Positions 57,964 through 60,648 of a stretch of 64,000 bases of DNA are shown piece after piece. The DNA is from Rhodohalobacter halophilus (lineage in GTDB: Bacteria; Bacteroidota; Rhodothermia; Balneolales; Balneolaceae), in contig NZ_MDWE01000022.1 in the NCBI RefSeq assembly GCF_001715195.1, positions 62,001-126,000 of the forward strand, in the 5' to 3' direction. The translations under genes and the position numbers were made by a program. How positions within the stretch are numbered: the stretch's first letter is position 1; each line of letters opens with the position of its first letter. The notes beneath the pieces were generated by a model that was not told where the DNA came from, did no database searches, and saw nothing but the letters and a program-made list of their open reading frames with translations.

Positions 57964-59184
57964 TTACGAATTGCTATAGTTTTTGACTACATAATCATCC
58001 AGAATTTTCCTGAACTCTGCACCGATTCCATCTCCCTTCAATGTTGTAAAGTGATCGCCATCAACATATACAGGAGCCTTGGGTTCTTCGAATGTGCCGG
58101 GCAGTGAGATTCCAATATTTGCATGACGGGATTCGCCCGGACCATTCACCACACACCCCATAACCGCCACATCCATCTCCTCTACTCCGGGATAGATTTC
58201 GCGCCAAACCGGCATCGACTCCACGATGTAGCTTTGAATTTCATCAGCCAGCTCTTGAAAGTATGTGCTTTTTGTTCGTCCACATCCCGGGCAGGATGTA
58301 ACTTGCGGGATAAAACTTCTGATTCCTAGTGACTGCAGAATCTGCTGACAAATACGCACTTCCTCGGCACGGTCGGCTCCCGGCATCGGAGTCAATGAAA
58401 CCCGTATAGTATCACCGATTCCCTCCTGCAGAAGAACGCCCAATGCCACCGAACTCGCAACGGTTCCCTTCATCCCCATTCCGGCTTCGGTAAGCCCAAG
58501 GTGTAACGGATATTTCAGATCCTTCGCGATTCTTCTGTAGACATTAATCAAATCCTGCACACCGCTCATTTTGCAACTAACAATAATTTTATCTGAGGCC
58601 AGTCCAACATCTTCGGCAAGCGCGGTTGATCTGCGTGCACTCTCCACCATCGTATCGAGCATCACCTCTTTGGATGATTTTGGCTCTTTTCTGTTGTTAT
58701 TTTCATCCATGTACTGTACCAGCAGCTGCTGATCGAGAGAGCCCCAGTTGACTCCAATTCGTACCGGTTTGTCATATTTGATCGCCTGCTCCACAATGGT
58801 GCAAAAATTCTCATCGCGTGTTTTGGTGCCCGTGTTTCCCGGATTGATCCGAAATTTTGCCAGCGCCTCTGCCATATCCGGATAATTGGTCAGAAGTTTA
58901 TGCCCGTTATAGTGAAAATCGCCCACAATAGGCACTGTCACACCCCTGTTCAGTAACTTCTCTTTAATATGAGGAACCGCCTTCGCAGCAGCATCATTAT
59001 TTACCGTAATCCGCACAATCTCAGATCCGGCTTTATGCAGATGATCAACCTGATCCACGGTCTCATCAATATCAGCTGTATCGGTATTGGTCATCGACTG
59101 CACCACAATTGGGTGCCCACCCCCAACTGGAATATCTCCAACCATTACCGTGATTGATTTTCTGCGCTTGATTGGACTACTCAT
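57964..59184 (-). CDS. ispG: 4-hydroxy-3-methylbut-2-enyl diphosphate synthase
   Basis: A 406-residue IspG, the [4Fe-4S] enzyme that makes HMBPP in the MEP isoprenoid pathway. The start at 59184 ([16 protein letters not shown]) is chosen over one 15 codons upstream. The family begins with [12 protein letters not shown], seen here as [20 protein letters not shown]. Cluster cysteines are in [11 protein letters not shown] and [13 protein letters not shown]. Further support comes from [34 protein letters not shown] and [11 protein letters not shown]. The bacterial short form fits the length. Isoprenoids feed the carotenoid enzymes elsewhere in this window, but no functional grouping is implied by position. 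Confidence 0.95.
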
Positions 59185-59220
59185 GATACACTCTTTAATT
59201 TCTAATCTATTCTCTGCAAT

Positions 59221-59246
59221 AGTTGGCAATTTGCAATTGGCAGTTC
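59221..59246. repeat. Inverted low-complexity tract, left of the four-helix-bundle gene
   Basis: AGTTGGCAATTTGCAATTGG followed by CAGTTC; its reverse complement (AACTGCCAATTGC...) resembles the tract at 59715-59751 in inverted orientation. Confidence 0.65.
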
Positions 59247-59269
59247 GCTAATACTATCTACAATTGTAA

Positions 59270-59647
59270 TTAATTCGTTCCTCTGCCTTGATACTTTTCA
59301 GGAAAAGTCATCATGTGATACAGCATTTTCCCAACTTCTTCTGACAGAGACTGAAGTTTACTGTTTACTTCTTCGGAAATGTATCCGCAACTGTGAGCAA
59401 AATCCAGGGAAACCTGAGTCTCTGAGTTTTCCATATCGGCATCACTTATTTTACTGATGAAGTGATTGGGATATCTTCTCTTCCGATAACCCTCAGCAAT
59501 TGCTCTTGAAACGGATCGAGATGATCTTCGAATCTGACCGGTTAGTGCATATTTCTCTTCACTTGGAAATGACTTTGTGATAAAAAATATCTCCATCGCC
59601 AGGTTGTATGATTTTTTATAAACCTTCAGATCTTTAAAATCTCCCAT
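59270..59647 (-). CDS. Four-helix-bundle protein (23S rRNA intervening-sequence type)
   Basis: A 125-residue helical protein of the PF05635 group. Typical sequence is DLKVYKKSYNLAMEIFFITKSFP, EKYALTGQIRRSSRSVSRAIAEGY, FISKISDADMENSETQVSLDFA and LSEEVGKMLYHMM. Relatives are encoded inside intervening sequences of some 23S rRNA genes and, as Avd, in diversity-generating retroelements. Most copies, like this one, are stand-alone and of unknown function. No 23S rRNA or reverse transcriptase is in this window. It is flanked on both sides by inverted AACTGCCAA-like tracts. Confidence 0.9.
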   Translation of the reverse strand: MGDFKDLKVYKKSYNLAMEIFFITKSFPSEEKYALTGQIRRSSRSVSRAIAEGYRKRRYPNHFISKISDADMENSETQVSLDFAHSCGYISEEVNSKLQSLSEEVGKMLYHMMTFPEKYQGRGTN

Positions 59648-59714
59648 AACCCACTGAATTAGTAAAATTTTAAATCAAGATATCAAATATCAACAAAAAC
59701 AGAACACCTACTAT

Positions 59715-59751
59715 TGTTAATTGCTAACTGCAAACTACCAACTGTCAACTG
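59715..59751. repeat. Low-complexity tract, right of the four-helix-bundle gene
   Basis: TTGTTAATTGCTAACTGC, continuing with AAACTACCAACTGTCAACTG. Repeated AACTGxxAACT units, matching the inverted tract at 59221-59246. Confidence 0.65.
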
Positions 59752-59754
59752 AAT

Positions 59755-60648
59755 TCAGTTTCTCTTACTTAAATCAAACAGCCTCTTCTTCTCCTCTGTT
59801 GTTAGGCCATCGTACCCATGCTTGGAAATTTTTTCGAGGATATCATCCAAATCAGAAACCTCCTCTTCATCTAAGATTTCCACGTCACTGACTGAGTACA
59901 TATTCTTATTTTTCTTCCGCTTGCTCTTTTTTTTCTTCGAGGATGAACTTGCAAGCTCCGGATTCCAGATTCGTTCAATCGGGCGTACAAACTTTGACAG
60001 GTCCGTTCCGTTATAATGCGCTCTCACGAGTAAATAACCAATTCCGGCACCCCCAAGGTGAACCAATCGCGCTACATTATCACCCGCTCCAATGAATAAC
60101 ACATCAAAAACAATCAACCCGGCCACCACATAACGTGCCTGAATAGGTGGCAGCAGAAAGAGCATAATGGGCATGGTTGGATACATATAGGCAAAGGCGA
60201 CCATCACACCAAATACGGCTCCGGACGCGCCAATCACCATGCTGGTTCCATAGAGGAAGGACAAGGCGATATGAAAAACTGCCCCACCGATACCGGCACC
60301 GAAAAAGATGACGGCAAACGTTCTGGGGCCTAACCCCTCCTCTACCGCTCTCCCCATCCACCATAGCCAGAGCATATTAAATAACAGATGAAATCCACCG
60401 CCATGCAGAAACATGTAGGTAACAAATCGCCATGGTTGCGTAATGGCTGTGCCAAGGTTTGGGTTAAAACCGAGCCAGTCGACAATGTACCGGTTCAACG
60501 ATTGTCCGCTAATTTGGATTCCGCCAAAAAAGGCTTGGAAAACAAAAATAATTACATTGATTGCAATAAGCGTACGGATGACTGCCGGCATTCGCAGAAA
60601 TCCGCGTTTAAAAGAGTTCCAGAATGAGTCTTGTTGATACATATTCAA
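59755..60648 (-). CDS. Rhomboid-family intramembrane serine protease with C-terminal tail
   Basis: A 297-residue rhomboid. Six or so helices carry HGGGFHLLFNMLWLWWMG, the nucleophile in GASGAVFG and the catalytic His in RLVHLGGAGIGYL, so the Ser-His dyad is intact. After the last helix a basic linker (SSSSKKKKSKRKKNK) leads to an acidic tail with ILEKISKHGYDGLTTEEKKRLFDLS. This tail is common in rhomboids of the FCB group (DUF6576-like). The tail faces the cytoplasm and may bind a partner or substrate. A second rhomboid gene lies 27 bases upstream on the same strand, so the pair is probably co-transcribed. Confidence 0.93.
   Translation of the reverse strand: MNMYQQDSFWNSFKRGFLRMPAVIRTLIAINVIIFVFQAFFGGIQISGQSLNRYIVDWLGFNPNLGTAITQPWRFVTYMFLHGGGFHLLFNMLWLWWMGRAVEEGLGPRTFAVIFFGAGIGGAVFHIALSFLYGTSMVIGASGAVFGVMVAFAYMYPTMPIMLFLLPPIQARYVVAGLIVFDVLFIGAGDNVARLVHLGGAGIGYLLVRAHYNGTDLSKFVRPIERIWNPELASSSSKKKKSKRKKNKNMYSVSDVEILDEEEVSDLDDILEKISKHGYDGLTTEEKKRLFDLSKRN

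Follow-up and report, generated by a model that had tools for sequence, protein, structure and literature searches.

What a small gene for a four-helix-bundle protein is doing by itself between ispG and a rhomboid-family gene of Rhodohalobacter halophilus, and whether the low-complexity tracts on its two sides belong to it, are the questions raised by this locus. Many genomes have such proteins annotated ('S23' proteins), with no function assigned. The locus lies in a stretch of 64,000 nucleotides (hereafter, the window), and an earlier note, made from the letters of the window alone, took its layout to suggest a small cassette that moves or is copied as a unit. Here, I argue that it is probably (at a rough probability of 0.7) a free-standing selfish cassette of the type of the 23S rRNA intervening sequences (IVS), namely a basic four-helix-bundle gene set between inverted arrays of seven-nucleotide words. 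That the cassette is a mobile unit is well supported; as to the mode of its movement, I infer one further below.

The cassette in the rhomboid-ispG gap

The features of the locus are the following (coordinates are those of the window).

59218..59754, minus strand: whole cassette (tract, gene and tract), delimited by its inverted arms and by comparison of the junction with relatives; edges approximate
59270..59647, minus strand: four-helix-bundle gene (S23p / 23S rRNA IVP family), 125 aa; profiles, fold and purifying selection
59718..59750, no strand assigned: arm 5' of the gene; G/T-rich heptads AGTTGGC in gene sense
59221..59253, no strand assigned: arm 3' of the gene; C/A-rich heptads in gene sense, complementary to the 5' arm
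57964..59184, minus strand: ispG (context), right-hand neighbour in gene sense; ORF list and homologues
59755..60648, minus strand: rhomboid-family gene (context), left-hand neighbour in gene sense; synteny, with the family name given by eye and by the earlier note

The rhomboid gene, the four-helix-bundle gene and ispG are all on the minus strand. The description of the gene as bordered by rough inverted repeats was borne out: the two arms, of 33 nt each, are inverted and complementary at 24 of 33 positions (73%), a value never reached in 300 shuffles and reached once in 400 random placements within the window. The tracts are degenerate period-7 arrays with the consensus AGTTGGC / AATTGGC. 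Because this copy is degenerate, and Tandem Repeats Finder at its threshold calls no array at either tract, their heptad nature is clear from the relatives only. The right tract directly adjoins the stop codon of the rhomboid gene (59755-59757), and the ispG start that fits its homologues is the ATG at 59184, as opposed to the TTG inside the tract given in the ORF list. Between the tracts there is no ORF of at least 60 aa besides the four-helix-bundle gene, hence no transposase ORF and no Y1 transposase. In the predicted RNA of the cassette the arms pair and enclose the whole unit (MFE -137.1 kcal/mol, z -1.87), a folding that 5 of 100 shuffles equal.

The protein

The product belongs to the S23p / 23S rRNA IVP family, matching both Pfam 23S_rRNA_IVP (PF05635; E 3.6e-31, 108 bits against a curated cut-off of 33.8) and TIGR02436, 'four helix bundle protein' (E 1.1e-26, 93.1 bits, cut-off 24). 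It also matches Pfam bAvd (E 1.1e-10), and with 28.7 bits it falls far under the cut-off of 80 of the Avd equivalog profile, outside that group. An AlphaFold2 model from 45 sequences, used instead of a single-sequence model (pLDDT 43), has four helices at pLDDT 94.8. With it, Foldseek retrieves 2gsc (Xcc0516; chain 2gsc_E, TMq 0.84, rmsd 1.2) and 2rld (BT_0352), and Avd (4dwl) as a weaker match (E 0.035, TM 0.77); a sequence match at 1.4e-28 agrees with the four-helix-bundle fold. Xcc0516 has been reported as a homopentameric ring (PMC4990558, PMC10053308). The window protein has a pI of 8.9, and the pI exceeds 8.5 in 96 of the 124 proteins of the set described below, which would fit nucleic-acid binding. 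The values of dN/dS, 0.063/0.738 for the gene pair of genomes G000 and G023 and 0.045/0.517 for that of G005 and G016, are low in dN relative to dS, and therefore the coding region is kept by purifying selection. No catalytic domain is seen in the protein, so a host partner for mobility must be assumed.

A large class of genes with inverted heptad flanks

PF05635 matches occur in 27 of the 28 genus genomes, commonly several in each among the matches listed. Most of the matches listed went into a set of 129 distinct instances, 127 with scorable flanks and 124 with 200 nt on both sides; these 124 genes (115 from the genus and 9 from outside) occupy 66 sites, in genomes that for the genus are mostly drafts and many of them probably MAGs, sites and clades being set by simple similarity rules. 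Inverted flanks, called at a local score of at least 30 (a cut-off picked after seeing the scores and applied equally to the controls), are present in 96 of the 124 genes and in 3 of 81 spaced controls, that is, genes separated from both neighbours by 100 nt or more and from the nearest four-helix-bundle gene by 250 nt or more. A looser control of unselected ORFs, some of which overlap four-helix-bundle genes, gives 16 of 261. As instances within one site are not independent, figures per site and by permutation are used as well: the median score is at least 30 at 54 of the 66 sites. The remaining 28 genes have no inverted-repeat score of at least 30, clades 6, 14 and 20 (five genes) being entirely without one.

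The flanks share a period and a strand bias. Autocorrelation of the upstream arm is 0.61 and 0.60 at lags 7 and 14, against 0.35 at lag 8 and about 0.25 at most other lags; of 97 cases, 88 have a G-rich 5' arm and 88 a C-rich 3' arm. At least 15 paired bases between the flanks are predicted in the RNA of 105 of 124 cassettes versus 49 of 120 controls, closed-stem folding being largely a product of arm complementarity itself. Likewise, in a wider-phylum sample, inverted flanks are found in 24 of 38 genes (9 of these 38 are also in the 124-gene set), again with period 7. Thus the other copies with matching flanks that the earlier note had advised looking for are present at many places. No title or abstract retrieved by searches of the open PMC library (subscription papers and preprints lie outside this scope) describes a heptad-flanked four-helix-bundle cassette outside rRNA.

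The arms follow the protein clade

Complementarity between the two arms of one gene scores 39.4, compared with 21.6 for arms taken from two genes, and in 124 cases a gene's own partner arm ranks first 40 times and fifth or better 94 times. Across sites, arms match better within a protein clade (26.5) than between different clades (21.1; 5000 permutations, p<=0.0002, 74 representatives), a cross-site score of at least 30 being reached by 25.3% of the comparisons within and 4.4% of those between clades. The words themselves can be read: AAAAGTG/AAACGTG and relatives over 7 sites in the LNHKKL clade, AAGGTTG/C in the FEDLEIWQ clade, AGTATTG/AGTCTTG, AGTTTTG and CTGGTTG/AGGGTGC among other clades, and AGTTGGC in the clade of the window protein.

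This pattern extends to GTDB genomes scanned for the window clade, where inverted flanks score at least 30 in 71 of the best 80 of 349 relatives. A word could be called in all but 47 of the 160 arms of these best 80, the most frequent being AGTTGGC and AGTTTGC, and the sequence-record labels name Bacteroidota, Balneolota, Chlorobiota, Ignavibacteriota, Calditrichota, Cloacimonadota and Planctomycetota (Scalindua). The unit is therefore recurrent, with arms that fit one another and keep to the word of their protein clade from site to site and from phylum to phylum. In the tree, Balneolaceae copies interleave with Bacteroidota copies inside one supported group (100/96), an arrangement that would fit transfer between phyla. 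Two records call for a remark: L296, labelled as a Chitinophagaceae bacterium, has a locus identical to that of genus member G009, so that the label looks wrong, and the locus of L299 (Rhodohalobacter sulfatireducens) is identical to that of G016, in line with a genus that belongs to Balneolaceae.

The rhomboid-ispG junction across relatives

Had all relatives carried the gene and its flanks at this place with vertical divergence only, the suggestion of a mobile cassette would have had little to stand on. The gap proves instead to be polymorphic. ispG was found in 52 of 58 genomes, and the junction is readable in 21 of the 28 genus genomes and in 27 outside the genus. The gene of the window clade has an open frame at 6 of the 21 genus junctions (G000, G023, G009, G004, G014 and G007, the last counted as apparently open, the N-terminal part or start of its gene being unclear), and is frameshifted at one (G008). 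One junction (G017) holds an internally deleted copy that keeps both tracts, and two (G005 and G016) hold only fused inverted tracts, without the gene. Five junctions are occupied by another four-helix-bundle cassette, whose inverted tracts are AAATTCCAAGCACC-like; it is open in G003, G019 and G020 and broken in G024 and G002. No cassette is detected by homology in the other six (G006, G010, G012, G013, G015 and G018), of which G012 may keep a trace of tract. Some of the absences are losses that have left scars. Outside the genus, none of the 27 junctions has a four-helix-bundle gene.

A comparison in point is that of G017 and G019, whose ispG genes are 94% identical: the flanks are near-identical and the cassettes differ, the left edge of the cassette in both lying directly after the rhomboid stop codon. 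G007 and G008 carry both kinds of tract on the left side of the junction, which, as a reading of the sequence, suggests nesting. Independent arrivals at this gap are suggested by the tree, in which the G008 copy stands apart, yet a single arrival of the window clade within the genus is not rejected by the AU test (p 0.128), and they are not claimed here.

Movement, exchange and decay

Of the 22 protein clades 13 are found at more than one site, and 8 of the 66 sites host more than one clade. L169 (genome G002) and L171 (G019) share 492 nt at 89% identity between unrelated outer flanks, the identity starting exactly at the left tract and fading within the right one. Two copies in a single Cloacimonadota MAG (L306 and L308) are 86% identical over 612 nt only, a stretch that extends somewhat past the heptads, which counts against a unit bounded by the tracts. 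Different cassettes are found between the same flanks in L181 and L214, and again in L205, L217 and L218. In two Candidatus Scalindua genomes (L307 and L321) the cassettes are 91.5% identical and the orthologous flanks 75.7%, which points either to strong selection or to a cassette recently exchanged with its site unchanged. Tract-to-tract homology cannot explain replacement, because different clades use different words at one site.

Decay is equally apparent. At the L168 site the G017 copy is internally deleted, with the tracts and the end of the gene kept. A clean empty site was sought by setting the G019 cassettes against the sister genome G017, where L206 has no match and L168 is this deleted copy; among the compared sites, no insertion with a clean empty target and target duplication was caught, the tracts being too variable for a target-site duplication to be found. 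Exchange and decay are therefore both seen, gain and loss not always being separable at single sites. As intergenic sites may have the unit, lack it, hold an internally deleted copy or have it exchanged, with edges at the tracts, the proposal that the cassette moves or is copied as a unit is upheld.

In each of two loci, L211 (G016) and L212 (G005), a gene that by eye looks thiolase-like is flanked by a pair of four-helix-bundle genes of opposite strand, separated by some 2.7 to 3.7 kb, and other cassettes lie in the corresponding gaps in other species. A composite element with cargo was considered for them and set aside, as the intervening genes look, by eye, ordinary metabolic ones.

Alternative explanations

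A first alternative is that the protein is a domesticated RNA-binding regulator, or a defence-type protein, with autoregulatory stems, the units being shuffled by ordinary recombination after gene transfer. Purifying selection, the basic proteins and the exchange between close genomes at fixed sites are all in its favour; nevertheless, the sites are scattered, decay is frequent, and over 66 sites there is no constant neighbour to regulate, which makes this alternative unlikely.

It is more improbable still that the heptad tracts are a genome-wide background of simple repeats (like cyanobacterial STRRs) among which the gene merely happens to lie, the ispG gap reflecting vertical inheritance and losses. 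Heptad tracts are not exclusive to the cassette, since solo tracts exist. In G020 contigs there are 14 intergenic loci (L247-L260) with solo (AACTGCC)n tracts in direct orientation, no four-helix-bundle gene being present in the stretches examined, and these tracts often adjoin other heptad words (AATTTGG, AGTGAAA). Moreover, a 30-nt core, TTTGATCTTTCTGTTTAGAATAAAAAAATT, occurs nine times in L067 and L068 (contigs C43 and C42 of G000), always on the same strand and in the company of small genes that by eye resemble toxin-antitoxin genes; the copies on C43 lie between (AAACAGT)n and (ACTGCTA)n arrays. The copies of these two loci are a gene-less heptad hairpin family, and as no copy of the core is present in 57 relatives, the two contigs may be foreign to the G000 draft. 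Solo tracts in both genomes thus fit a repeat background, and vertical inheritance with losses can draw on the internal deletions and scars and on the single arrival that the AU test leaves standing. Against the former are the excess of inverted flanks over spaced controls (96/124 vs 3/81) and the match of the arms to each other and to the protein clade, across sites and phyla; against the latter, other cassettes occupy the same site.

Two movers acting in trans have even less in their favour. The protein fold, its weak profile similarity to Avd and the long RNA stem would suit a retroelement, with an Avd-like protein whose RNA is copied by reverse transcriptase in trans; RVT_1, though, is found in only 9 of the 28 genus genomes and in none of the cassette carriers G000, G023, G003, G008, G014 and G015, a pattern to be read with the incompleteness of drafts (G000 is 97.8% complete) and the chance of loss after transfer in mind, and this is a very improbable reading. 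Just as doubtful is mobilisation of the cassette in trans by the hairpin-acting Y1 (REP-associated) transposases: inverted repeats are used by both systems and Y1_Tnp is present in 25 of 28 genus genomes, but the pairing flanks of Y1 genes (20 loci, 19 scored) are palindromes such as GTCCCTGACGGGAC, not heptad arrays, and the drafts G006, G011 and G026 have four-helix-bundle matches and no Y1 match. Both candidates are weakened by these RVT_1 absences and palindromic flanks, which argue that the protein would work with housekeeping enzymes. The Y1 genes in question (L376-L395), with REP-like palindromic flanks and up to 17 matches per genome, are a separate REP/RAYT-like system.

Relation to known systems

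The closest likeness to the free-standing cassette is with the 23S rRNA IVS of Coxiella and Leptospira, which share a PF05635 protein, an ORF within an inverted-repeat stem, a sporadic distribution and suspected horizontal transfer (PMC4990558). In the 428-nt Coxiella IVS, RNase III cleaves a terminal stem of 28 bp, and tandem copies of the heptad GACAGAT lie close upstream of the S23p ORF (PMC4990558); heptads beside the ORF, reported for Coxiella only, are degenerate in the window copy and clear in its relatives. In the view of the Coxiella authors it is the RNA, more than the protein, that matters, and they describe the functionality and origin of rRNA IVS as unclear (PMC4990558). Unlike these IVS, which reside in rRNA helices and are excised by RNase III, the window cassette lies between two protein genes, and its arms are built of heptads whose word tracks the protein clade. 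Its location thus keeps it out of the rRNA IVS proper, whose build it shares in protein, stem and heptads.

PF05635 has been noted to resemble Avd (PMC10053308). The cassette protein has the fold of Avd of diversity-generating retroelements (4dwl) and a weak profile similarity to it, and lies outside these retroelements, no reverse transcriptase (RVT_1) match being found in the 97.8% complete draft G000.

In outline, the cassette works like the REP/REPIN-RAYT systems: short inverted repeats that are clade-cognate enclose the gene of a small protein, and hairpin derivatives without the gene occur as well. Unlike those systems, the cassette has no Y1 nuclease in its protein, and the repeats are tandem arrays of 7 nt, not single palindromes. 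The derivatives with fused arms and no gene, or with an internal deletion (G005, G016 and G017), recall MITEs, from which the cassette differs in having no known parent transposase.

Finally, heptamer direct repeats are known from Beggiatoaceae (TAACTGA), with related heptamers in Cyanobacteria and Bacteroidetes (PMC4679880). They have in common with the tracts the period of 7, the intergenic position, similar words and a patchy distribution; they are mostly direct, and the available text of that paper links none to four-helix-bundle or 23S genes.

A proposed mode of movement and its significance

For the IVS-type selfish cassette favoured here, the following steps may be envisaged. The arms would pair as a stem in the transcript, and possibly in single-stranded DNA as a hairpin; the protein, whose solved relative is a pentameric ring, would bind its own heptad stem (a putative binding), protecting or presenting it; and intergenic gaps that tolerate the unit, often already or formerly occupied by another cassette, would receive it through copying or insertion by host enzymes. 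Processing of the stem by an RNase III-type activity would keep the neighbouring transcripts functional, as in the 23S rRNA IVS, which might themselves be members of the cassette class that landed in rRNA. The widest form of this proposal, that rRNA IVS are the rRNA-landed part of a widespread superfamily without transposases, in which a four-helix-bundle ring protein would recognise its own 7-nt word, repeated in inverted arrays at both ends, and need nothing beyond host enzymes to move or copy the unit, is tentative, and I would give it slightly less than an even chance.

The cassette resembles insertions known until now mainly within ribosomal RNA genes, here intergenic and in many bacteria, and three loose ends are thereby linked, namely orphan S23 genes, intergenic heptamer repeats and rRNA IVS. 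As the protein clade predicts the heptad word, natural cognate and non-cognate pairs are at hand for a direct binding test. If it is true that such units move without a transposase or a reverse transcriptase, they would represent a new route of gene mobility.
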